A stretch of DNA of 64,000 bases, taken from Ideonella alba. Lineage in GTDB: Bacteria > Pseudomonadota > Gammaproteobacteria > Burkholderiales > Burkholderiaceae_C. A program made the position numbers and the translations under genes. The stretch covers positions 124,001 to 188,000 of the forward strand of contig NZ_JAGQDF010000003.1 in the NCBI RefSeq assembly GCF_018069875.1, written 5' to 3'. Shown here piece after piece: positions 4,595-63,361 of the stretch. The notes under the pieces are model-generated. The model was not told the DNA's origin. It ran no database searches and worked only from the letters and a program-made list of their open reading frames with translations. How positions within the stretch are numbered: the first letter of the stretch is position 1; each line of letters starts with the position of its first letter.

Positions 4595-7570
4595 TCAGGT
4601 GGGCGCGGCGGGGCGGATCCGCTCGGTCGTGGCCGTGGCGTAGACCCGGCCGTCGTCGCCCTGCAGCGCCGTAGCCTTGACCAGCACCTCCAGCGTGCGG
4701 CCGTCCTTGGTCAGGCGCTGCGTGGGCCGGGCCAGCGTGAGGTCGGATTCGGCGGCGCGGCGCAGTTCCTCCAGCGCCTCGGCACGGCGCTCGGGCGGGA
4801 TGCGGTCGCGCACGTTCAGCGCCAGGGCCTCGGCCTCGCTCCAGCCATACAGGGTCGCGGCCGCCGGGTTCCAGGCCAGCGTGCGACCGTCCAGGTCGTG
4901 CACGGTGACGGCATCGAAGGCGTCGCGCACGACGACCGCCAGGCGCAGCACCTCGTTGACCTTGCGCAGGGCCTGGCGGGTCCGCACCGACTCCGAGATG
5001 TCGACGAAGGTGATGACCGCCCCCTCGATCACGTTGGCGATCGTGCGGTAGGGCTGGATGCGCATCGCGTACCAGCGGCCATCGCGCGTGCGCACCTCCA
5101 GCGTCTTGGGAATCAGGCTGTCCAGCACCGATTGCGTGTCCGCCACCAGTTGGTCGTAGCCGTCGAGGTTGGAGGCCAGGTGGCCCACCGGGCGCCCGAT
5201 GTCGCCGGCGATCAGGTTGATGATCTCGCTGGCACCGGGCGTGAAGCGCAGGATGCGCAGGCCGTGGTCGACGAACACCGTGGCGATGCCGGTGCCGGCC
5301 AGCAGGTTGTTCATGTCGTCGTTGGCGCGCGAGAGGTCGGCCACCTTGTTCTCGAGCTCGGCGTTGACCGTGCTCAGCTCCTCGTTGACCGACTGGAGTT
5401 CCTCCTTCGAGGTCTCCAGTTCCTCGTTGGTGGACTGCAGCTCCTCGTTGACCGACTGCATCTCCTCGTTCGAGCTCTTGAGCTCCTCGATCGACGACTC
5501 GAGCTCCTCGTGCAGCGCCTGCACCTTCTCCTCGCTGATGCGCAGCGACTCGGCCAGCGCGGCCAGGCGGGTGTCGATGCCGGCCTCGGCATCGGGGGCG
5601 GTGCCGGCCGCGGCCGGGGTCTCGGCGTCCTGCGGTTGCGCCGCCTCCAGCAGCACCAGGTAGAGCTGGGGGCCGGCGGGATCGGTGTCGGCGTCCAGGG
5701 CGCTGACGGCCAGGTTCACGCTGGTGTGGTGGCCGTTGGTCTTGACCCGCACGCCACGCACCACGGCCGTCCTGCGGGCGGCAGCGGCCTGCGTCAGGGC
5801 CAGCGACAGATCGCGCCGCAGGCCGTCGCGCGCCATCGCGAGGATGTTGCTGATGCCGGCCTCGCCGGGTGCGGGCTCCAGGTACTGCCCGGTGCGTCCG
5901 TGCAGGTAGAAGATGTCGCCCTGGACGTTGACCAGGGCGGCGGCGATCGGCAGTTCGCGAAGAATCGCGCGCTCGGCCCGTTCACGCAGCGTTGTCTTGG
6001 GCAGGGGCATGGGCGGATGCTCGGGGGTCTCGGTGGGGGCGGCAGGCAGGAGCATCTGGCTCAGGGCCGCACGCGGTTTGTCCAGGTAGTCCTCCAGGCG
6101 CCGGTACACCTTGGCGCGCCGGTCCACCGCCTCGAAGAGGTGGTTGAACTCGCCGATCGATTCCGAGGTGCCCAGCAGCAGGATGCCGCCGGGCCGCAGC
6201 GCGTAGTGGAACAGCGGGATGAGGCGCTTCTGCAGCGTGCCGTCGAGGTAGATCAGCAGGTTGCGGCAGCTGATCAGGTCCAGCTTCGAGAAGGGCGGGT
6301 CGCGCGTCAGGTCATGCTCGGAGAAGACCAGCAGGTCGCGCAGCTGCTTGCGCACGCGCCAGCCGCCGTCGCCGGCCTCGGCCGTGAAATGGCGGGCCAG
6401 CCGCTCGGGCGTGATGTCGGCACTGATGCTGGCCGGGTAGGTGCCGGCGCGGGCCAGCGCGATGGCGCGGCTGTCGATGTCGGTGGCGAACACCTGCAGC
6501 ACCTGCGGCGTGGCGGGCTCGTCCAGCCGCTCGAGCATCAGCATCGCGATCGAGTAGGCCTCCTCGCCACTGGAGCATCCGGCCACCCAGGCGCGCAGCG
6601 GGCGGTGCGGCAGGCGCCGCGCCAGCAGTGTCGGCACGACCGTGTCCTCCAGCACCCGGAAGGCCTCGGGGTCGCGGAAGAACTGGGTCACGCCGATCAG
6701 CAGGTCGCGGAACAGGGCCTGGACCTCGTCGGCCGACTGCTGGAGGTAGGCGGCGTAGGCCTCGAGGGTCTCGATCTGGTGCACGGCCATGCGTCGCTGC
6801 ACACGCCGCTGCACCGTGGTGGGCTTGTAGTGGCTGAAGTCATGGCCGGTCTTCAGCCGCAGCTGGGCGAAGACCCGGTGCATGGCGCCGCTGGCGGCCT
6901 CCGGCGAGCGCTCACCCGTCGGTGGCGCGGGCCGGTAGGCCTTGGCGGCAAAGGCCTGCAGGAAGGCGGGCATCGCGCCCGGGGCCAGCGTCTGATCGAC
7001 AGCGCCGGTGCCCAGGGCCGCACGCGGCATGCCGTCGAACTCGGTGGACTGTGGTGACTGCGCCAGCACCAGACCGCCCGCGCCCTTGATGGCCAGCACG
7101 CCCTGGGCCCCGTCACTGCCGGTGCCCGACAGCACGATGCCGACACTGGCGTCCTCGCGGTCCAGCGCCAGCGAGCGGAAGAAGCCATCGATCGACAGCC
7201 GATGGCCCCGCGCCGCGATGGGCTCCAGCAAGTGCAGCGTGCCATGGCGGATCTCCAGCCCCCGTCCCGGCGGGATCACATACACGGTGTTGACGGCCAC
7301 CACCAGACCGTCGGTCGCCTCGGCCACCGGCAGGTGGGTGCAGCGGCGAAGAATGTCGGGCAGCACGCTCGGGTGGTCGGGCGACAGGTGCTGCACCAGC
7401 ACGAAGGCCATGCCCGGCAGGCTGTCCGAGGGGATGGCGGCGAAGAAGGCCTCAAACGCGGCCAGTCCGCCGGCCGACGCGCCGATGCCGACGATGGGAA
7501 AGCCCGCCGCAGCGCCCGAGGGCTCCGGACCGGCGCGGGAACTGGCCGTTGCCTTGGTGCGCTTCACCAC
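4595..7570 (-). CDS. CheB/CheR fusion protein with coiled coil and PAS domains
   Basis: 991 residues. A CheB-type methylesterase domain comes first (about 25-210), with the nucleophile in GIGASAGG, a His in VQHLSPDH and an Asp in SGTGSDGAQG. A CheR-type methyltransferase follows (about 225-485), with TQFFRDPEAF, the SAM site AGCSSGEEAYS and FATDIDS. A long heptad coiled coil of repeated N/S-E-E-L units spans about 662-755, followed by two PAS domains to the end. No receiver precedes CheB, so the esterase is not under the usual phospho-control. Fusions of this type accompany orphan histidine kinases rather than chemotaxis clusters, and no chemotaxis gene is nearby. Downstream is the hybrid kinase gene. 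Confidence 0.95.
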   Translation of the reverse strand: MVKRTKATASSRAGPEPSGAAAGFPIVGIGASAGGLAAFEAFFAAIPSDSLPGMAFVLVQHLSPDHPSVLPDILRRCTHLPVAEATDGLVVAVNTVYVIPPGRGLEIRHGTLHLLEPIAARGHRLSIDGFFRSLALDREDASVGIVLSGTGSDGAQGVLAIKGAGGLVLAQSPQSTEFDGMPRAALGTGAVDQTLAPGAMPAFLQAFAAKAYRPAPPTGERSPEAASGAMHRVFAQLRLKTGHDFSHYKPTTVQRRVQRRMAVHQIETLEAYAAYLQQSADEVQALFRDLLIGVTQFFRDPEAFRVLEDTVVPTLLARRLPHRPLRAWVAGCSSGEEAYSIAMLMLERLDEPATPQVLQVFATDIDSRAIALARAGTYPASISADITPERLARHFTAEAGDGGWRVRKQLRDLLVFSEHDLTRDPPFSKLDLISCRNLLIYLDGTLQKRLIPLFHYALRPGGILLLGTSESIGEFNHLFEAVDRRAKVYRRLEDYLDKPRAALSQMLLPAAPTETPEHPPMPLPKTTLRERAERAILRELPIAAALVNVQGDIFYLHGRTGQYLEPAPGEAGISNILAMARDGLRRDLSLALTQAAAARRTAVVRGVRVKTNGHHTSVNLAVSALDADTDPAGPQLYLVLLEAAQPQDAETPAAAGTAPDAEAGIDTRLAALAESLRISEEKVQALHEELESSIEELKSSNEEMQSVNEELQSTNEELETSKEELQSVNEELSTVNAELENKVADLSRANDDMNNLLAGTGIATVFVDHGLRILRFTPGASEIINLIAGDIGRPVGHLASNLDGYDQLVADTQSVLDSLIPKTLEVRTRDGRWYAMRIQPYRTIANVIEGAVITFVDISESVRTRQALRKVNEVLRLAVVVRDAFDAVTVHDLDGRTLAWNPAAATLYGWSEAEALALNVRDRIPPERRAEALEELRRAAESDLTLARPTQRLTKDGRTLEVLVKATALQGDDGRVYATATTERIRPAAPT

Positions 7571-57015: not shown

Positions 57016-57034
57016 CATTTTTTTCGCGCCGGCC

Positions 57035-57061
57035 TGAAAGGTTGGGCGGTCCTGGGCCGAC
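57035..57061 (+). promoter_or_regulatory. ECF-sigma-like promoter of cysteine-rich peptide gene 1
   Basis: TGAAAGG (57035-57041) and CGAC (57058-57061) are separated by 16 nt. In copies 2 and 3 of the peptide gene the same layout is TGTCAGG, 15 nt, CGAC. Directly downstream are two TGCAC direct repeats (57072-57076 and 57084-57088). The start codon is at 57116. The match to copies 2 and 3 is weaker here, so this one is least certain. Confidence 0.45.
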
Positions 57062-57115
57062 TGAAGTCGTGTGCACGATCCATTGCACCTCTTCAACCCA
57101 ACCCAAGGACCCACC

Positions 57116-57334
57116 ATGAACCTCCGTCACGCCGCCCTGATCGCCGCCGCCCTGATCGCCCAGTCCGCCGCCCACGCCGCGCCGGGCAAGGACAGCTCGT
57201 GCGGTGCCGGCTCCTGCGGCAAGAAGACCGCCACCGCGCCGAAGAACGCTGCCTCGGACGCTGCCTGCAGCAAGAAGGACGGTGGCAAGGAGTCGTCGTG
57301 CGCCAAGAAGGATGGCGGTTGCTCGAAGAAGTGA
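57116..57334 (+). CDS. Cysteine-rich exported peptide 1 (bufferin/HvfA-like RiPP precursor)
   Basis: 72 residues. Signal peptide MNLRHAALIAAALIAQSAAHAA, then a mature part of 50 residues with five Cys in Lys/Ser/Gly-rich surroundings (DSSCGAGSCGKK, then AACSKKDGG, SSCAKKDGG, CSKK). It differs from copies 2 and 3 by lacking one 7-residue unit CSKKDGG (21 bp) and by one Ser-to-Ala change. In bufferin (HvfA) precursors, Cys residues are turned into thiooxazole/oxazolone-thioamide groups that bind copper. Here the E-G-K-C-G motif is absent and S-C-G and K-K-D-G-G-C are used instead. The maturase gene is 4 kb away, beside copy 2. Confidence 0.75.
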   Translation: MNLRHAALIAAALIAQSAAHAAPGKDSSCGAGSCGKKTATAPKNAASDAACSKKDGGKESSCAKKDGGCSKK

Positions 57335-57387
57335 GCGCAGCGCCGCCCTGGCGCGTTGGTTCAAGACAGGCCCGCGCGGGCGCCACA

Positions 57388-57417
57388 GACTCCGGTCCTC
57401 CCTGGATGACCGGAGTC
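57388..57417 (+). promoter_or_regulatory. Perfect hairpin covering the ribosome-binding site of the molybdenum hydroxylase small subunit
   Basis: Arms GACTCCGGTC (57388-57397) and GACCGGAGTC (57408-57417) pair over 10 bp with a 10-base loop. The 3' arm contains the Shine-Dalgarno GGAG (57412-57415), 6 nt before the ATG at 57422. In the mRNA this fold would hide the ribosome-binding site. As DNA it could instead be an operator. A ligand-sensing role is speculative. Confidence 0.65.
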
Positions 57418-57421
57418 GCTC

Positions 57422-57895
57422 ATGTTCCTCAGCATCAATGGCCAGCGGCACACGGTGCCGGACGGCTGGCAGGATGACACGCTGCTGATGGTGTTGCGCG
57501 AGGCCCTCGGCCTCGTCGGCCCGAAGCTGGGTTGCGGCCAGGGCCAGTGCGGCGCCTGCACCGTGCTGGTCGATGGCCAGCCGCAGCGCAGCTGCCTGCT
57601 GCCGGTGTCGGCGGTATTGCAGCGCCCGATCACCACCCTCGAAGGCCTGGCCGGGCCCGACGGCCGTCTGCACCCGGTGCAGCAGGCCTGGCTGGACGAA
57701 GCCGTGCCGCAGTGCGGCTACTGCCAGGCCGGCCAGATCATGGCCACGGTGGCCCTGCTCGATGCCACGCCGCAGCCCACGCGACAGCAGGTCGAGGCCG
57801 CGCTGGCGCCGCAGCTGTGCCGCTGCGGCACCCAGCCCCGCATCCGCCGCGCGGTGCAGCGCGCGGTGCAACTGCGCCAGCAGGCTGCGCGGTGA
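57422..57895 (+). CDS. [2Fe-2S] small subunit of a molybdenum hydroxylase (IorA-like)
   Basis: 157 residues. An N-terminal plant-type ferredoxin cluster site, C-x4-C-x2-C (GCGQGQCGACTVLVDG, about 40-50) with a fourth Cys in QRSCLLP. A C-terminal four-helix cluster domain has QCGYCQAGQIM and LCRCGTQPRIRRAV. These bind the two [2Fe-2S] centres of xanthine-dehydrogenase-family enzymes. It matches the small subunits of isoquinoline 1-oxidoreductase and aldehyde oxidoreductases. The gene overlaps the large subunit by 4 bp (GTGA). It lies between cysteine-rich peptide copies 1 and 2. Confidence 0.93.
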   Translation: MFLSINGQRHTVPDGWQDDTLLMVLREALGLVGPKLGCGQGQCGACTVLVDGQPQRSCLLPVSAVLQRPITTLEGLAGPDGRLHPVQQAWLDEAVPQCGYCQAGQIMATVALLDATPQPTRQQVEAALAPQLCRCGTQPRIRRAVQRAVQLRQQAAR

Positions 57896-59964
57896 GGCGC
57901 CGCACCTTTGTGGCGGCCGGTGCGGCCGGCCTGACCGTCTGGCTGGGCGCCTGCGCGCTGCCGGTGATTCCGCGGCGCCCCACGCCCGATGCCGAAGCGG
58001 CGCTGGGCTGGGTGCGCTTCGACGGCACGCGTTACCGGCTGTGGCTGCCGCGCGCCGAGATGGGCCAGCAGATCGACACCGCACTGGCCCAGATCGCCTG
58101 CGAGGAGCTGGGCATCGAGCCGGCGCAGCTGGACGTGCTGCTGCCCTCCACCGCCGACATCCCGCGCGTGCGCGCCACCGTGGGCAGCGAGTCGGTGCAG
58201 GCCTTTGCGCTGCCGCTGGCCCAGGCCTGCGCCACGCTGCGCGATGCGCTGGCGCGAGGCCAGCACCAGGGCACGCTGGTGGCCGAGCCGCGGCCGGCCT
58301 CGCAGCCGCGGGCATGGCGGCCGGGCGGGCGCTGGGTGGGCGCCTCGCTGCCGTCGGCCGCGCATGCGGCGCTGGTGCGCGGCGCGCCGCTGTTCACGGC
58401 CGACGTGCGCCGACCCGGCCTGCTGTACGGCCGGGTGCTGCGGGCACCGGCCTCGCCCGACCTGGCCTCACGCGTGCTGGCGCTGGACGAGGCCGCCGCC
58501 CGCGCTGTGCCGGGCTTCGTGGCACTGGTGCGCGAGGCGCGCCTGGTGCAGGGCCGCAGCCTGGGCCTGGGCGTGCTGGCGCGCACGCCGGGCGCGCTGG
58601 ACCGCATCGAGGCCGCGCTGGCGCTGCGCTGGCAGGTCGACGGCGACCTGGGGCCGGCGCCGCTGGCGCAGCAGCTGGACATCGACATCCACCTGGCCGG
58701 TGGCGCGCTGCCGCACCGGCTGCGCGACGATGGCCCCGGCGAGCCCGGGGGACGCTGGGACGTGGACCTGCGGCTGGACCTGCCCGCCGCGCCGCACAAC
58801 GCGATCGAGCCGCGCTGCGCCGTGGCCCAGGTGCGCGCCGATGGCGGCTTGGACCTGTGGGCCGGCACCCAGGACGCGTTCTATGTGCGTGACGTGGTGG
58901 CCCACCACACCGGCCTGTCCGCGGACCAGGTGGTGCTGCACACCCAGCGCATCGGCGGCGGCTTTGGCGGGCGCACGATCTGCACCGTCGAACTGGAGGC
59001 GGCGCTGCTGGCGCGGTCGGCCGAGGCCGCCGGCGCGCCGGTCAAGCTGCAATGGACCCGCGCGCAGGAGCTGCGCCAGGGCTTTCACCGGCCGCCGTCG
59101 AGCCACCGCATCCGTGCCCGGCTGGACGGCGGCCGCCTGGTGGCCTGGTGGCATGCCTTCGCGACCACGCCGATCCTGCTGACCAATGCGGCCTTGCCGG
59201 CCTGGCTGAACCCGCTCACCCGGCTGGTGGGCGACGCCGGCGCGGCCCGCGGCGCGCTGCCGCCCTACCGTGTGCCCTGGCAGCGTGTCGAACACACGCT
59301 GGTGCGCTTGCCGCTGTACACCGGGCCGTGGCGCGGGCTGGGGGCCGGGCCCAACGCGCTGGCGATCGAGTCGGCCATCGACGCCTGCGCGCGCGCTGCC
59401 GGCCGCGACCCGCTGGCCTTCCGGCTCGACCATGTCGACGACCCGCGCCTGCGCCGCGTGCTGCTGCGCGTGGCCGAGGCCGCCGGCTGGTCGCGGCCGC
59501 GGACCGCCGGCACCGGTCGTGGCCTGGCCTGCGGCGTCTACAAGGGCGCGGCCTATGTCGCCACCGTGGCCGAGGTGGCTGCGGTGGATGGCCGCTGGCG
59601 CGTCACGCGCCTGGTCTGCGCGGTCGATGTGGGCCGCATCATCCACCCCGGTGCCGTGCGGGCCCAGTGCGAAGGCAACCTGGTCTGGGGCCTGGGCATG
59701 GTCTTGACCGACCAGTTGCCGCTGGATGCGCACGGCGTGGCGGCCACCGGCTTCGACGGCGCACCGATCCCGCGCCTGCCCGAGGTCCCACCGATCGAGG
59801 TGCTGCTGGTCGACGAGGGCGACCCGCCCGGCGGTGCCGGCGAGACCGCGATCGTCGGCGCCGCGGCGGCCGTGGGCAACGCCCTGCATGACGCCAGCGG
59901 TCGCCGGCCCACGCAGCTGCCGCTGGCGGTCGACCTGCGCATCGCGGCATCATCGACCCCATGA
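57892..59964 (+). CDS. Molybdopterin-binding large subunit of an aldehyde/isoquinoline-type oxidoreductase (IorB-like)
   Basis: 690 residues from a GTG that overlaps the preceding stop codon. The N-terminus VRRRTFVAAGAAGLTVWLGAC combines a twin-arginine-like signal with a possible lipobox (L-G-A-C), so export is likely. Conserved cofactor loops are visible: RIGGGFGGRT (about 365), PYRVPWQRVEHT, VDVGRIIHPGAVRAQ. The catalytic Glu lies near the C-terminus in PPGGAGETAIVGAAAAVGNAL. It would hydroxylate an aldehyde or N-heterocycle. The electron acceptor is not encoded nearby. ATGA overlap with the AraC-type regulator suggests co-transcription. Confidence 0.92.
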   Translation: MRRRTFVAAGAAGLTVWLGACALPVIPRRPTPDAEAALGWVRFDGTRYRLWLPRAEMGQQIDTALAQIACEELGIEPAQLDVLLPSTADIPRVRATVGSESVQAFALPLAQACATLRDALARGQHQGTLVAEPRPASQPRAWRPGGRWVGASLPSAAHAALVRGAPLFTADVRRPGLLYGRVLRAPASPDLASRVLALDEAAARAVPGFVALVREARLVQGRSLGLGVLARTPGALDRIEAALALRWQVDGDLGPAPLAQQLDIDIHLAGGALPHRLRDDGPGEPGGRWDVDLRLDLPAAPHNAIEPRCAVAQVRADGGLDLWAGTQDAFYVRDVVAHHTGLSADQVVLHTQRIGGGFGGRTICTVELEAALLARSAEAAGAPVKLQWTRAQELRQGFHRPPSSHRIRARLDGGRLVAWWHAFATTPILLTNAALPAWLNPLTRLVGDAGAARGALPPYRVPWQRVEHTLVRLPLYTGPWRGLGAGPNALAIESAIDACARAAGRDPLAFRLDHVDDPRLRRVLLRVAEAAGWSRPRTAGTGRGLACGVYKGAAYVATVAEVAAVDGRWRVTRLVCAVDVGRIIHPGAVRAQCEGNLVWGLGMVLTDQLPLDAHGVAATGFDGAPIPRLPEVPPIEVLLVDEGDPPGGAGETAIVGAAAAVGNALHDASGRRPTQLPLAVDLRIAASSTP

Positions 59965-60881
59965 AGGACTTCGCCGCCGCCGCGATGCTGCGCCTGGTGG
60001 CGCTGGGACTGCGCCGGGAAGGGCTGGTCGGCGGGCCGCTGCCCGGCGCGTCGGCGGCGCTGGTGCCGCTGCAGGACAAGCGCCAGCAGCTGGCGCAGCT
60101 GATGCAGGCCCATGGCCCCGACCTGCTGCTGCGCCTGGGCCTGGCGGTGCAGGACGCGGCCGACGAGCCCACGCTGCGCGCGCTGACCCAGGCGCGCAGC
60201 GCGCCCGACCTGATTGAGCGCTGGCAGCGGCTGGAGCGCTATGTGCACTCGCGCCACCGCGTGCTCCTGCTGGCGGGCCAGGCCGGCGGCTGCACGCTGC
60301 GCCATGTCTCCTTGCACGCCGGCGAGGCCCCCCACGCCGCCGAGGACCTGCTGGTGCTGGGCCTGCTGGTCGGGCTGCTGCGGCGCCTGGGCACCCCGGC
60401 GCTGCGCGCGCGCCTGGCGGGCGAGGCCGACTGGCGTTACCAGCAGGATGGCTGGCGCGCGGCACCGATGCCCGCGGCCACGCACACCTGGGAGCTGGCC
60501 TGGCGGGCGAGCGCCGACGTTGCGGCGCCGGGCAGCGAGCCGGACCTCGCGGCCACCGTGGCGGCGGCACGGCAGCAACTGGCGGCCGATGTCGCGGCGC
60601 CGTGGACCCTGCCGCGCCTGGCCGAGGCCCTGCAGCTCAGGCCCCGCACCCTGCAGCGCCGGCTCACCGACGCGGGCAGCTCCTTCTCGCAGCTCTGGAC
60701 CGAGGTGCGCCTGGCGCAGTCGGCGCGCCTGCTGCTCGACACCCGGGAGCCGGCCGCGCAGATCGGCTACCTGTGCGGCTTCGCCGACCAGGCCCACTTC
60801 ACGCGCAGCTTCAAGCGCAGCACCGCCATGACCCCGGCGGTCTACCGCGCGCAGTTCGCCGGCGCTGCGCTGGCGCAGTAA
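59961..60881 (+). CDS. AraC-family transcriptional regulator
   Basis: 306 residues; the ATG overlaps the preceding stop codon by 4 bp. The C-terminal 100 residues are a double helix-turn-helix of AraC type (TLPRLAEALQLRPRTLQRRLTDAGSSFSQLWTEVRLAQSARLLLDTREPAAQIGYLCGFADQAHFTRSFKR). The N-terminal 180 residues have the look of an AraC_binding arabinose-independent sensor domain (GEAPHAAEDLLVLGLLVGLLRRLG). It probably controls the molybdenum hydroxylase genes, and possibly the neighbouring peptide genes. The downstream peptide gene 2 follows after a 123-bp gap with its own promoter-like region. Confidence 0.9.
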   Translation: MKDFAAAAMLRLVALGLRREGLVGGPLPGASAALVPLQDKRQQLAQLMQAHGPDLLLRLGLAVQDAADEPTLRALTQARSAPDLIERWQRLERYVHSRHRVLLLAGQAGGCTLRHVSLHAGEAPHAAEDLLVLGLLVGLLRRLGTPALRARLAGEADWRYQQDGWRAAPMPAATHTWELAWRASADVAAPGSEPDLAATVAAARQQLAADVAAPWTLPRLAEALQLRPRTLQRRLTDAGSSFSQLWTEVRLAQSARLLLDTREPAAQIGYLCGFADQAHFTRSFKRSTAMTPAVYRAQFAGAALAQ

Positions 60882-60922
60882 CGGCAGCACGCAGCGCGCA
60901 TCGAAAAAAAGTTCAAGAAGGC

Positions 60923-60948
60923 TGTCAGGTTTCGGCGGCTGGCTCGAC
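60923..60948 (+). promoter_or_regulatory. ECF-sigma-like promoter of cysteine-rich peptide gene 2
   Basis: TGTCAGG (60923-60929), 15-nt spacer, CGAC (60945-60948). The same sequence and spacing recur in front of copy 3 (TGTCAGG 62526-62532, CGAC 62548-62551), and about 20 of the 26 bases are identical. The -35/-10 layout fits an ECF sigma factor. The zinc-finger gene downstream could encode its anti-sigma factor, but no sigma gene is in the window. Confidence 0.6.
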
Positions 60949-60958
60949 AGACAGGATG

Positions 60959-60973
60959 TGCACACCGTGTGCA
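60959..60973. promoter_or_regulatory. Palindrome at the start of the peptide 2 transcript
   Basis: TGCACACCGTGTGCA, perfect 6-bp arms with a 3-base centre, 11 bp downstream of the CGAC of the promoter-like site and 31 bp before the ATG at 61005. It would lie at or near the transcription start, either as a repressor operator or as a 5'-end RNA stem. Copy 3 has a variant, CATGCAC-5-GTGCATG. Confidence 0.55.
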
Positions 60974-61004
60974 TCACTTCTGAAACCCACCAAGGAAACC
61001 GACC

Positions 61005-61244
61005 ATGAACCTCCGTCACGCCGCCCTGATCGCCGCCGCCCTGATCGCCCAGTCCGCCGCCCACGCCGCGCCGGGCAAGGACAGCTCGTGCGGTGCCGGC
61101 TCCTGCGGCAAGAAGACCGCCACCGCGCCGAAGAACGCTGCCTCGGACGCCGCCTGCAGCAAGAAGGACGGCGGCTGCAGCAAGAAGGACGGTGGCAAGG
61201 AGTCGTCGTGCTCCAAGAAGGACGGCGGCTGCTCGAAGAAGTGA
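61005..61244 (+). CDS. Cysteine-rich exported peptide 2 (bufferin/HvfA-like RiPP precursor)
   Basis: 79 residues, identical in sequence to copy 3 and one CSKKDGG unit longer than copy 1. Signal peptide to about residue 22, then six Cys: SSC-GAGSC-...-AACSKKDGGCSKKDGGKESSCSKKDGGCSKK. The Lys/Asp/Gly/Ser surroundings and the Sec-type signal match HvfA/BufA2-like metallophore precursors. Ribosome-binding region AAGGA. The stop codon is 8 bp before the maturase gene (bufB), so the two are surely co-translated. The mature peptide would be exported to the periplasm after modification of Cys residues. Confidence 0.82.
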   Translation: MNLRHAALIAAALIAQSAAHAAPGKDSSCGAGSCGKKTATAPKNAASDAACSKKDGGCSKKDGGKESSCSKKDGGCSKK

Positions 61245-61252
61245 GACCCGCG

Positions 61253-62044
61253 ATGAACACGCCAGCTGTGGGTGTGGGCTATCGGCGCGAGATGGCCGGG
61301 TGGGATCTGGCGGCGCTGCCCGCCGACTTCCACGAGGTCGTCCCCGAGAACTGGCTGCGCCGCGACCGCGCCCCGCTGCACGCGATGCGTGCACTGGGTC
61401 GGCCGGTGTGGCTGCACGGGGTCACGCTGAACCTGGGCGGCACCGCGCCGCTGAATGCGGCGATGCTGCGCGAGGTGGCTTCGCTGATGGATGAGCTGGG
61501 CGCCACCTGGTACTCCGACCACCTGGCCGCCAGCGGCGACGCCCACCAGCTGCACGACCTGTTCCCGCTGCCGCACACCCACAGCGAGCTGATCCGGGTG
61601 TCCGACCGCATCCGCCAGGCGCAGGACATCCTGGGCCGGCGCATGGCGATCGAGAACCCCACCTGGTATGCCAACATCGGCGACATCCCCGAGCCCGATT
61701 TCCTGGCCGGCGTGGCCGACCGGGCCGACTGCGCGGTGCTGCTGGACCTGAACAACATCGAGGTCAACCGCAAGAACCACGGCAGCCCGCCGCTGGACGC
61801 CTTCCTCGCCCGCCTGTCACCCGACCGCATCGCCTACCTGCATGTGGCCGGCCACGAATGGGACGAGCGCTTCGGCCTGCATGTGGACACGCATGCGCGC
61901 TCGGCGTCTGAGGAGGTGCGCGCCCAGGCGCGTGCGCTGTCGGCCGCGCACGGCTGGCCGGTGCTGCTGGAATGGGACCATGACCTGCCGGAGCCCGCCG
62001 GCCTGGCCGAGGAGCTCGCATGTCTGCGTTCTTCGACTATGTGA
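61253..62044 (+). CDS. bufB: MNIO/DUF692-family RiPP maturase (BufB/HvfB-like)
   Basis: 263 residues, TIM-barrel of the DUF692 family. Metal-binding and substrate residues typical of multinuclear non-heme iron oxygenases are seen: His in WLHGVTLNLGG, YSDHLAASG, AIENPTWY, LLDLNNIEVNRKNHG, LHVAGHEW, HVDTHARS and LEWDHDLPE. In HvfB and BufB the enzyme oxidises Cys of a small precursor to an oxazolone/thioamide-type ring that binds copper. Here the precursor is copy 2, 8 bp upstream. The bufC-like gene overlaps its 3' end by 25 bp. Confidence 0.92.
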   Translation: MNTPAVGVGYRREMAGWDLAALPADFHEVVPENWLRRDRAPLHAMRALGRPVWLHGVTLNLGGTAPLNAAMLREVASLMDELGATWYSDHLAASGDAHQLHDLFPLPHTHSELIRVSDRIRQAQDILGRRMAIENPTWYANIGDIPEPDFLAGVADRADCAVLLDLNNIEVNRKNHGSPPLDAFLARLSPDRIAYLHVAGHEWDERFGLHVDTHARSASEEVRAQARALSAAHGWPVLLEWDHDLPEPAGLAEELACLRSSTM

Positions 62045-62289
62045 GGGGCCGCAGCGACACGCTGCCCGAAGGCTACGACGAGCGCGGCATGCGCCTGTAC
62101 CGCCACCTGGTGTGGCTGGGCGCCAGCCAGACCATCGAGGCCCACCACCCCACGCTGCGCGAACAGCTGGGCGAAGAGGCCTGGCGCGGGCTGATCGAGG
62201 CCTGGGTGCGTGAGTCCACCTGGGACTCGCCCTTCGTCAACGACCTGGCCGAAGACTTCGTCGCCTTCCTGGCCCGCACCACCGCCTGA
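62020..62289 (+). CDS. bufC: Short DUF2063 protein (minimal BufC/HvfC-like partner)
   Basis: 89 residues: FFDYVRGRSDTLPEGYDERGMRLYRHLVWLGASQTIEAHHPTLREQLGEEAWRGLIEAWVRESTWDSPFVNDLAEDFVAFLART. This is recognisably the N-terminal DUF2063 domain (D-x-G-x-x-x-Y, P-x-L-x-x-x-L-G-x-x-x-W), ending with V-N-D-L-A. HvfC/MbnC partners are about 250 residues, so the C-terminal half is absent. The ATG is inside the bufB 3' end (25-bp overlap). The protein probably presents the precursor to BufB. If the missing half binds the leader, this short form must do so differently. Confidence 0.8.
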   Translation: MSAFFDYVRGRSDTLPEGYDERGMRLYRHLVWLGASQTIEAHHPTLREQLGEEAWRGLIEAWVRESTWDSPFVNDLAEDFVAFLARTTA

Positions 62290-62298
62290 GCGCCTGCG

Positions 62299-62499
62299 AT
62301 GAACTGTCGCGATGCTGCTGCGGTGCTGCACGGCGGGCCGCGCGCCGGCACAGACCGGCGCCGTCGGCTGCAGGCCCGCGCGCACCGCTGGCTGTGCGCC
62401 GACTGCCGCCGCCTGGCCCGCGACGACGCCCGCCTGGACCGGCTGCTGGCGCAGTGGCGCGCGCAGGCCTGGACGGCCGACGACAGCGCGCCGCGTTGA
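62299..62499 (+). CDS. Small zinc-finger (zf-HC2/anti-sigma-like) protein
   Basis: 66 residues with the motif H-x3-C-x2-C (HRWLCADCRRLARDD) preceded by a Cys near the N-terminus (MNCRDAA) and with no membrane helix. ZAS-type anti-sigma factors of ECF sigmas carry the same H-x3-C-x2-C zinc site. In Neisseria an ECF sigma with a zinc-binding anti-sigma controls a bufferin-type operon. It lies 9 bp after bufC and 29 bp before the promoter-like site of peptide 3, so it could sense metal or redox state of this locus. No sigma gene is present in the window. Confidence 0.65.
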   Translation: MNCRDAAAVLHGGPRAGTDRRRRLQARAHRWLCADCRRLARDDARLDRLLAQWRAQAWTADDSAPR

Positions 62500-62525
62500 G
62501 CGGCGAGAAAAACGTGCGATCCAGC

Positions 62526-62577
62526 TGTCAGGTTTCGACGGCTGGCCCGACCAAAGAACATGCACACCACGTGCATG
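62526..62577 (+). promoter_or_regulatory. Promoter-like site and palindrome of cysteine-rich peptide gene 3
   Basis: TGTCAGG (62526-62532), 15-nt spacer, CGAC (62548-62551), as for copy 2. Then a 19-bp palindrome with 7-bp arms, CATGCAC (62559-62565) and GTGCATG (62571-62577). Start codon at 62625. The two elements together are repeated, with small changes, at all three peptide genes. Confidence 0.6.
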
Positions 62578-62624
62578 ACCACCCCAAACCACCCGACCCC
62601 ATCCCACCTCATAAGGACACGACC

Positions 62625-62864
62625 ATGAACCTCCGTCACGCCGCCCTGATCGCCGCCGCCCTGATCGCCCAGTCCGCCGCCCACGCCGCGCCGGGCAAGG
62701 ACAGTTCCTGCGGTGCCGGCTCCTGCGGCAAGAAGACCGCCACCGCGCCGAAGAACGCGGCCTCGGACGCCGCCTGCAGCAAGAAGGACGGCGGCTGCAG
62801 CAAGAAGGACGGTGGCAAGGAGTCGTCGTGCTCGAAGAAGGACGGCGGCTGCTCGAAGAAGTGA
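62625..62864 (+). CDS. Cysteine-rich exported peptide 3 (bufferin/HvfA-like RiPP precursor)
   Basis: 79 residues, protein identical to copy 2; the DNA differs from copy 2 at about four synonymous positions only, pointing to recent duplication or gene conversion. Signal peptide MNLRHAALIAAALIAQSAAHAA and six Cys in three SKKDGG-type units. It is followed after 8 bp by the DoxX/HvfX-like gene, with no maturase of its own; it would depend on the bufB product encoded 1.4 kb upstream. A ribosome-binding site (AAGGA) lies about 8 nt before the ATG. Confidence 0.8.
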   Translation: MNLRHAALIAAALIAQSAAHAAPGKDSSCGAGSCGKKTATAPKNAASDAACSKKDGGCSKKDGGKESSCSKKDGGCSKK

Positions 62865-62872
62865 GGCCCGGC

Positions 62873-63361
62873 ATGAGCGCGCTCTCACTCCCCACCTGGG
62901 TCGTGCGCACGCACGGCGCGATCACCCAGGCGATCGACGGCCTGGGCCTGCTGGCCCTGCGGCTGTGGCTGGCGCAGGAATTCGGCCAGGCCGGCTGGAC
63001 CAAGCTGAGCCATGGCCTGACCGCGCCCGAGTGGTTCGCCGGCCTGGCCTTTCCCGGTCCGCTGGGCTGGCTCTCGCCCGACATGAACTGGCTGATGGCC
63101 GGTGTGACCGAAGTGCTCGGCGCGGCCCTGCTGGTGCTGGGCTGGCCGGTGCGGCTGGCGGCGCTGGCGCTGCTCTTCGTCGATGTGATCGCCGTCTGGA
63201 CGGTGCACTTCGACCTGGGCTGGGCGGGCTGGAACCAGATCGAGACCGACGCCGGCCAGGGCTTCAAACTGCCGCTGATGATGGGCGTGATGCTGCTGGC
63301 CGTGCTGAGCCAGGGCGCCGGCCGCTGGGCCTGGCGCGGCCTGCCACTGCGGCAGGCTTGA
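62873..63361 (+). CDS. DoxX/HvfX-like membrane protein
   Basis: 162 residues with four transmembrane helices (about 18-38, 68-90, 92-115, 132-152). The family pattern ALRLWLAQEFGQAGWTKL...GLAFPGPLGWLSPDMNWLMAGVTEVLGAALLVLGWPVRLAALALLFVDVIAVWTVHF and a final hydrophobic helix match DoxX-type HvfX proteins that accompany bufferin operons. The role of these membrane proteins is unclear and may be redox supply or export. It begins 8 bp after peptide 3, and no gene follows on the same transcript for 93 bp. Confidence 0.85.
   Translation: MSALSLPTWVVRTHGAITQAIDGLGLLALRLWLAQEFGQAGWTKLSHGLTAPEWFAGLAFPGPLGWLSPDMNWLMAGVTEVLGAALLVLGWPVRLAALALLFVDVIAVWTVHFDLGWAGWNQIETDAGQGFKLPLMMGVMLLAVLSQGAGRWAWRGLPLRQA

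Follow-up and report, generated by a model that had tools for sequence, protein, structure and literature searches.

How does the maturation enzyme of an exported, cysteine-rich peptide recognize its substrate if the partner protein of the enzyme carries no recognition domain? The question is raised by a gene cluster of Ideonella alba (RefSeq assembly GCF_018069875.1), which is located in a stretch of 64,000 nucleotides of contig NZ_JAGQDF010000003.1 (positions 124,001 to 188,000 of the forward strand), in the following referred to as the window. The original prediction had described the region as a bufferin-type island with three precursor copies, each followed by a different partner. Our analysis shows that the actual unit comprises precursor, a multinuclear non-heme iron-dependent oxidative enzyme (MNIO) as maturase, a DUF2063 partner protein, an anti-sigma factor and a DoxX protein. 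Judged by sequence comparison, the cluster is most likely a member of an unnamed, mainly betaproteobacterial subfamily of MNIO/PME1 thiooxazole metallophores (captophorins), which we term "CxKK". The subfamily appears as a conserved and distinct variant of MNIO metallophore systems in which the partner has lost the half that holds the recognition element for ribosomally synthesized and post-translationally modified peptides (RRE), and this feature is more unusual than the triplication.

A scan with three MNIO orthologues yielded 46 loci, 39 of which (L074 to L112 in our numbering) are 54-96% identical, the remaining seven being 37-43% identical. The 39 related loci belong to Betaproteobacteria (Bordetella, Comamonas, Thauera, Methylophilus, Aquabacterium and others) and to metagenome-assembled genomes (MAGs), two of which are labelled Moraxellaceae and Pseudomonadales. 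The closest locus is that of Ideonella aquatica, a species of the same genus, whose cluster MNIO is 96% identical to that of the window. One more member was found in genome G770 (L153), and no homologue of the MNIO was found on plasmids at E 1e-60; a match in genome G110 (E 7e-4) is by eye part of a glycine-cleavage gene and was discarded. A precursor core resides upstream of the MNIO gene in all 38 loci that include this DNA (37 by pattern, L081 by eye; the leader of L100 is unclear). The precursors are marked by a CGAG[TS]CGKK element followed by CSKK[DE] repeats: 38 of 39 possess a CGAGxCxKK-like start, 200 of the 252 core cysteines are located within CxKK, and the residue at position +1 of the cysteine is Ser (140), Gly (76) or Ala (27) in 243 of 252 cases. 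With the exception of L100, the first cysteine is found at residue 27-35; Sec signals were judged by eye throughout.

In the window, open reading frames (ORFs) and DNA comparison bore out three exported cysteine-rich precursors, beginning at 57116, 61005 and 62625, with identical leaders that end in a Sec-type AxA site (by eye) and a common core. As had been predicted, copies 2 and 3 encode one and the same protein, which has 79 aa and six cysteines, and the core motifs are SSCGAGSCGKK and CSKKDGG rather than EGKCG. None of 39 precursors (36 loci with both I. aquatica copies, plus the two window proteins) matched a Pfam model, including the DUF2282 signature of BufA1, which was scanned without a positive control in Pfam, or an HvfA or BufA model of NCBIfam, including NF050188 and NF050137 at E 0.01; the sole NCBIfam match was one weak match to curli CsgA. 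Among the control precursors, the BufA2 and HvfA models matched three of four, both HvfA models matched two EGKCG controls, and a DUF2282-like control matched no NCBIfam model. The proposal of MNIO-associated exported cysteine-rich peptides of the bufferin/oxazolin kind, with a core class missed by the HvfA and BufA models, is supported.

The partner protein is complete and 82-99 aa long in all 39 CxKK loci (89 aa in the window; the start assigned in L083, L085, L087 and L089 is uncertain and may lie further upstream). In all 56 other MNIO loci measured by the same search, the partner is 215-260 aa long, counted from the beginning of the domain to the stop codon. These comprise 28 loci of a class scan (29 fetched of 66 non-window matches, one being without an MNIO gene in its flanks), 21 of an order scan and seven of the MNIO scan; the partner profile missed the partners of 25 Buf1/Buf2-type loci, of which that of L017 is 256 aa long. 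Stop-to-stop frame lengths may include DNA 5' of the start, and the partner lengths were taken from other measurements. The partner profile scored 141.7-158.5 bits in three of 24 matching genomes of the order and at most 51.5 in the others (399 searched), and in the class scan 150.6 bits in the window and at most 53.7 elsewhere (66 of 369 genomes matching), with 13-14 first-look candidates scored per genome in both scans.

The partner proteins of the PME family have been described as DUF2063 fused to a full or partial RRE, and gripping of the precursor and activation of the iron cluster have been suggested as their functions (PMC13419390). In all 35 CxKK partners scanned, of 40 including that of the window, DUF2063 (PF09836) was the only Pfam match at E 0.001. 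A profile of the 35 partners matches residues 17-93 of the 249 residues of 3DEE (E 5.7e-6), the winged helix-turn-helix half of which comprises residues 117-231 (PMC2954202). Structural modeling of the window partner using AF2 predicted a confident, all-helical fold (pLDDT, the predicted local distance difference test score, 93), and the top two Foldseek matches among 350,542 chains were MbnC (7dz9_C) and 3DEE with weak E values of 0.5 and 1.9. A single-sequence search with the partner found nothing, and the profile match is better evidence than Foldseek. By these comparisons the CxKK partner is a DUF2063 domain without an RRE domain, that is, it possesses one part of a PME1 protein and lacks the other.

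An RRE might be supplied in trans, with a full-length partner from a different MNIO system or an unrecognized small RRE protein as its source. The genome of the window in fact possesses a second, canonical BufA2-BufB-type system (L017, G000:C33:95721-97312) with the full-length partner of 256 aa mentioned above, and more than one DUF2063 match occurs in 11 of 39 CxKK genomes, including those of the window and of I. aquatica. In the remaining 28, the single DUF2063 match coincides, according to a hand comparison of coordinates, with the short gene of the cluster, and, thus, no full-length DUF2063 partner able to lend an RRE was detected there. Besides the genomes of the window and of I. aquatica, this search covered those of the 38 other loci except L089 (37 genomes); several of the genomes are MAGs and possibly incomplete, and E. 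coli, used as a control, gave no DUF2063 match. In addition, any gene family beyond precursor, MNIO, partner, DoxX, extracytoplasmic function (ECF) sigma factor and anti-sigma factor was seen in at most seven of the 39 loci (ORFs overlapping core genes in other frames were discounted by position), which also argues against supply in trans. Supply in trans is, therefore, rather improbable.

The MNIO of the window matches PF05114 and belongs to the MbnB_TglH_ChrH family. All 41 CxKK rows of the alignment agree in the metal-ligand columns and in the catalytic Asp, the roles of the ligand columns being assumed from the family. The residue following the catalytic Asp is Asn in 37 and His in four of the 41 rows, the window having His; at this site, Phe is found in 33 of 38 EGKCG rows, Asp in 10 of 10 Buf2 rows and Thr in 12 of 14 Buf1 rows (16 unclassed rows were uncounted, and the class labels derive from reading the adjacent precursors). 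The residue preceding the catalytic Asp is Trp in CxKK enzymes, as in Buf1, in place of Arg. In FonB, the residue after the catalytic Asp, Phe250, has been tied to substrate reading, and the enzyme favours a small residue after the cysteine (PMC12668002), a preference with which Ser, Gly or Ala at +1 of the CxKK cysteines agrees. In phylogenetic trees of 90 rows (quick) and 58 rows (careful), a branch with support values of 100 and 100/100, respectively, sets the CxKK MNIOs off from all other rows. In the latter tree, a further branch (100/99) separates Buf1 and Buf2 from the CxKK MNIOs, the EGKCG maturases and some unclassed rows. For three EGKCG maturases, formation of 5-thiooxazole has been reported (PMC12668002). 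It might be argued that the CxKK enzyme makes another modification, such as an oxazolone-thioamide or a simpler thiol oxidation, owing to its differing specificity loop and partner, as would be compatible with the long stem branch of the group (2.1 changes per column in the 58-row tree), with the distinct substrate-reading residue and with the Trp shared with Buf1. However, retention of the ligand columns and the catalytic Asp as well as the position next to enzymes with reported 5-thiooxazole chemistry render such a different product unlikely.

A segment resembling NPFxxxxLxxGYxxA is located between signal peptide and core in most EGKCG-kind precursors residing beside full-length partners (L113 to L174) and is a candidate motif for recognition by the RRE. 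Among 45 precursors found at the 56 loci with long partners, the NPF..L..GY motif occurs in its strict form in 30 and in its loose form in 38, and in neither form in any of 37 CxKK precursors, the patterns having been picked after looking at the sequences. Recognition without an RRE is plausible, since for DUF2063-type RREs the text of PMC12710340 available to us reports no specific recognition motif and since the signal peptide has been stated to be involved in recognition (PMC13419390; PMC12452194). As the partner is without an RRE and the precursor without the leader motif of the EGKCG kind, it might be speculated that the MNIO-DUF2063 pair directly reads the signal peptide and/or the near-invariant CGAG[TS]CGKK element.

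We therefore propose, with a probability of roughly two in three, that the cluster directs the formation of an ECF-regulated, copper-binding 5-thiooxazole peptide of the CxKK subfamily which is matured without an RRE. The precursors would be synthesized in the cytoplasm, where the MNIO, activated by its helical DUF2063-only partner, would turn cysteines that precede Ser, Gly or Ala into 5-thiooxazoles with a loss of four hydrogens per cysteine. The Sec signal would then mediate export of the modified peptide to the periplasm, where, under oxidative or metal stress, it may buffer Cu(I) or a different thiophilic metal, possibly with the help of DoxX at the membrane. Transcription would be driven by an ECF promoter similar to that of Neisseria sigma-E, and the three precursor copies would increase the dose. 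A broader hypothesis, to which we would give even odds, extends maturation without any RRE to an entire clade of Sec-exported thiooxazole metallophores, in which DUF2063 alone would activate the MNIO, the signal peptide and/or the CGAG[TS]CGKK element would substitute for leader recognition, and RRE and leader motif would have been lost together.

Several points weigh against the proposed maturation of a copper-binding thiooxazole peptide without an RRE. The leader patterns were chosen post hoc, and the NPF..L..GY motif is, by eye, also missing from the Buf1 and Buf2 precursors, one of which resides beside the 256-aa partner; thus, absence of the motif alone is no proof that an RRE is not used. 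The search for a lent RRE covered DUF2063 proteins rather than RRE-like proteins of other families, and a canonical full-length partner is encoded in the window genome itself. The MNIO scores well below the equivalog cut-offs of HvfB (209 of 360 bits) and BufB (198 of 310 bits), and its reaction could differ, as the length of the stem branch might also indicate. Both 5-thiooxazole formation and copper binding of CxKK peptides are predicted from the genes and from relatives. Finally, no sigma factor gene was found in the cluster of the window or in that of I. aquatica, and the regulation of these two clusters is unsure.

The three precursor copies constitute a single direct-repeat family of 263 nt. 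The DNA identity is 98.2% between copies 1 and 2, 96.3% between copies 1 and 3 and 98.3% between copies 2 and 3, far beyond chance, with copy 1 being shorter by 21 nt. No further copy was found in the 5.5-Mb genome, the next matches having E values of 0.049 or worse. Compared with the syntenic copy of I. aquatica, copy 1 shows 88.1% identity, with 80% for the upstream regions and 96.7% for the flanking mgsA gene. As copy 1 is 98.2% identical to copy 2, yet only 88.1% to its syntenic counterpart, the triplication fits a recent local duplication with homogenization of the coding parts, the promoters probably having separate histories. The identity of copies 2 and 3 had also been considered as functional specialization, an explanation which the copy identities led us to replace by local duplication. 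The suggested search for the same triplication in related genomes gave no support for a design principle: among the 39 related loci, only that of I. aquatica had precursor matches at two places (the search was blank in six loci, which were covered by pattern or eye). It is also conceivable that the peptides act unmodified, as Cys/Lys-rich metallothionein-like molecules or thiol-redox buffers, at least with regard to copies 1 and 3, which do not directly precede the MNIO gene. Four genes separate copy 1 from that gene, and precursor genes distant from MNIO genes have also been noted in a survey (PMC12452194). However, one maturase can serve copies 2 and 3, which encode the same protein, and a precursor core was found upstream of the MNIO gene wherever this could be assessed. 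Accordingly, we regard an unmodified function as quite unlikely.

The genes in the window are arranged in the order mgsA (as we take the gene upstream of copy 1 to be), copy 1, FeS subunit, molybdopterin subunit, AraC regulator, copy 2, MNIO, DUF2063 partner, anti-sigma-like gene, copy 3 and DoxX, and in I. aquatica in the order mgsA, precursor, MNIO, partner, anti-sigma, precursor and DoxX, without the molybdenum genes. Pfam matches confirmed the predicted genes downstream of each copy, that is, Fer2_2 and MoCoBD subunits, MNIO, DUF2063 protein and DoxX. The assignment of the molybdenum hydroxylase as the partner of copy 1 did not withstand comparison. FeS, MoCo and AraC genes had no match in the 39 related loci including I. 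aquatica (flanks of at most 5 kb, some ended by contig ends). The trio occurs alone, with 43-63% identity by gene, in two other genomes of the order (G573 and G561; three of 399 genomes matched at E 1e-80, own genome included, with two candidates scored per genome), and no precursor match was found in the 14 kb around each of the two. Within the genus (16 genomes), all other matches to the large subunit are at most 38% identical. A functional unit with copy 1, in which the hydroxylase would act on the peptide or its metal, might be suggested by the common strand, the spacing of 87 bp that separates the stop codon of copy 1 from the start of the FeS gene and the TAT-like (twin-arginine translocation) N-terminus of the large subunit (by eye). 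In the light of the solitary trios and of the absence of matches in all related loci, such a unit is extremely unlikely; the molybdenum operon is a bystander unrelated to the peptide system, and the notion of a bufferin island with a molybdenum partner was rejected. The operon may either have arrived in I. alba or been lost in I. aquatica via recombination between the copies. Directly before the FeS gene, at 57388-57417, an inverted repeat GACTCCGGT/ACCGGAGTC is located, which may serve the molybdenum operon as operator or attenuator.

With regard to regulation, 30 of 41 regions upstream of precursors contain an exact TGTCAGG-N14-19-CGAC element (mean of 0.03 and maximum of 1 in 30 rounds of shuffling); as the upstream regions are related, this comparison does not represent a probability. 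An ECF gene of the L077 type is present in 23 of 37 loci, all 23 of which have the exact promoter (N14-17), compared to four of the 14 loci without such a gene, one on a short contig. The cluster sigma factors are 53-73% identical to that of L077 (99% for L079). An anti-sigma factor similar to that of L088 is encoded in 24 of 39 loci, and matches to the anti-sigma-like gene of the window, with 29-39% identity, are located 3' of DoxX, behind an ECF gene, in 11 of 39. Similarly, in Neisseria a sigma-E promoter (GTMAGBWTT / CGTCTAAH) has been described along with a similar operon and an anti-sigma factor with HxxxCxxC (PMC2893595), and a similar operon of H. influenzae depends on RpoE2 after hypochlorite (PMC7907618). 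The window has exact promoters at copies 2 and 3 and a variant at copy 1. A relocated sigma gene was considered: the only homologue in the genome (45%, contig C32) is 38-47% identical to the cluster sigma factors and by eye located beside TonB/ExbB-like genes, and this candidate was rejected as paralogue-like. Window and I. aquatica have nevertheless kept the orphan anti-sigma-like gene without a sigma gene. Its DNA identity between the two is 77%, compared to 92-97% for mgsA, MNIO, partner and DoxX, a fast divergence as if the gene had been released.

Two further observations concern the promoter regions. A GTGCAC-GTGCAC dyad is located 3' of the -10 element, at about +1, in 20 of 32 promoter-bearing regions (shuffled mean 0.02, the pattern having been fitted by eye), which might represent an operator or a hairpin in the 5' untranslated region. 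In L097, L098, L101, L103 and L107 (Methylophilaceae/Oxalicibacterium), there is no TGTCAGG promoter upstream of the precursor. These loci possess, by eye, another sigma gene and an NrsF-like gene on the opposite strand, and four of them a GTGTAACC element, suggesting a swapped regulator.

The features of the region are compiled in the table. The length of the partner, the anti-sigma-like gene, the AraC regulator and the ECF-type promoter before every copy are additional to the original prediction.

Table. Features of the CxKK cluster and its neighbours in the window (positions of the 64,000-nt stretch)
Feature	Positions	Strand	Basis or remark
ECF-type promoter of copy 1, diverged, TGAAAGG-N16-CGAC	57035..57061	+	two mismatches vs TGTCAGG; same TGAAAGG variant at the syntenic place in I. 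aquatica (L074)
Precursor copy 1, 72 aa, 5 Cys, Sec-type leader (by eye)	57116..57334	+	ORF, DNA comparison
[2Fe-2S] subunit of molybdenum hydroxylase, neighbour judged outside the peptide system	57422..57895	+	Pfam Fer2_2, E 3.3e-27
Molybdopterin subunit of hydroxylase, GTG start, neighbour judged outside the system	57892..59964	+	Pfam MoCoBD_1, E 8.5e-30
AraC-type regulator of the molybdenum operon, neighbour judged outside the system	59961..60881	+	Pfam HTH_18, E 6.2e-20; linked to the molybdenum genes in L177 and L178
ECF-type promoter of copy 2, TGTCAGG-N15-CGAC	60923..60948	+	pattern search
Dyad TGTGCAC-ACC-GTGTGCAT immediately 3' of the -10 element, copy 2	60957..60974	+	pattern search
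Precursor copy 2, 79 aa, 6 Cys	61005..61244	+	ORF
MNIO (DUF692) maturase, 263 aa	61253..62044	+	PF05114, E 4.3e-68, 229.8 bits
PME1-type partner, 89 aa, DUF2063 domain alone, no RRE	62020..62289	+	PF09836, 57.8 bits
Putative zinc-type anti-sigma factor, 66 aa, HxxxCxxC	62299..62499	+	NF052368, E 6.5e-5, 22.7 bits vs cut-off 50
ECF-type promoter of copy 3, TGTCAGG-N15-CGAC	62526..62551	+	pattern search
Dyad ATGCAC-N5-GTGCAT 3' of the copy 3 promoter	62560..62576	+	sequence reading; the general dyad pattern did not match there
Precursor copy 3, 79 aa, 6 Cys, protein identical to copy 2	62625..62864	+	ORF
DoxX/HvfX-type membrane protein, 162 aa	62873..63361	+	PF07681, E 3e-14, 53.8 bits; HvfX model NF050144, 76.9 bits vs cut-off 80

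In four Comamonas loci, two of which were looked at, a small ORF is located between precursor and MNIO. Its product appears to be exported in L110 and L111 (about 4640-4960) and is presumably DUF4148-like.

Among the known systems, the CxKK clusters share with the oxazolin/EGKCG captophorins (HvfABC, FonABC and Neisseria NMB2140-2145) the precursor-MNIO-DUF2063-DoxX core, the side of the MNIO tree and the small +1 residue, and with the Neisseria operon also, in part of the loci, the ECF sigma and anti-sigma genes and a similar promoter (PMC2893595). This type of sigma-E regulation with a zinc-type anti-sigma factor is uncertain in the window, where the promoters and the anti-sigma-like gene are present and the sigma gene is missing from the cluster. 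In contrast to the EGKCG oxazolins, CxKK precursors lack EGKCG/KCGExKCG repeats, the NPF..L..GY leader and a match to the HvfA models, the partner is without an RRE, and the specificity site of the maturase holds Asn or His instead of, mostly, Phe. Sec-exported precursor, MNIO, DUF2063 protein and DoxX are likewise found in the bufferins Buf1 (DUF2282) and Buf2 (BUF_6/12Cys); however, the CxKK MNIOs lie across the 100/99 branch, no BufA model matches the CxKK precursors, and the Buf2 cysteines are mostly followed by Lys rather than by Ser, Gly or Ala. While the C33 system of the same genome matches the BufA2 model and passes the BufB cut-off, the window cluster does neither.

The CxKK family also resembles the "CxxxxC" family of Antoine et al. 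2025 (PMC12452194), as described in the main text of that survey, with regard to the signal peptide, a similar family size and CGAGTC, itself a CxxxxC. A Lactamase_B_2 gene is reported in 54% of the CxxxxC clusters and absent from 46% (PMC12452194); among the matches listed (to about E 2.7e-6) in 37 genomes, hand comparison of coordinates placed no PF12706 match inside a CxKK locus. The two families might overlap or even be identical, a comparison made by description rather than by alignment. Short PME-type 2 partners, as described in the same survey, also consist of a DUF2063-like domain alone. They differ in lacking the Pfam DUF2063 signature and in being associated with signal-less precursors (PMC12452194), whereas PF09836 was matched by every CxKK partner scanned and the CxKK leaders are of the Sec type. 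No earlier description of the CxKK family or of an RRE-less PME1 protein with a Sec precursor was found in the literature examined, which consisted of main texts without supplements and included PMC13097082 and PMC12538549.

The conserved DUF2063-only partner renders the division of labour within MNIO partners directly testable with three small genes. If our hypothesis holds true, the joint loss of RRE and leader motif would amount to a natural experiment in which the two roles of these partners come apart. In addition, an Asn/His site combined with cysteines followed by Ser, Gly or Ala may constitute a fourth substrate code beside the three precursor groups described in PMC12668002. Thereby, a so far unnamed precursor family of Bordetella, Comamonas, Thauera, Methylophilus and others would gain its place.

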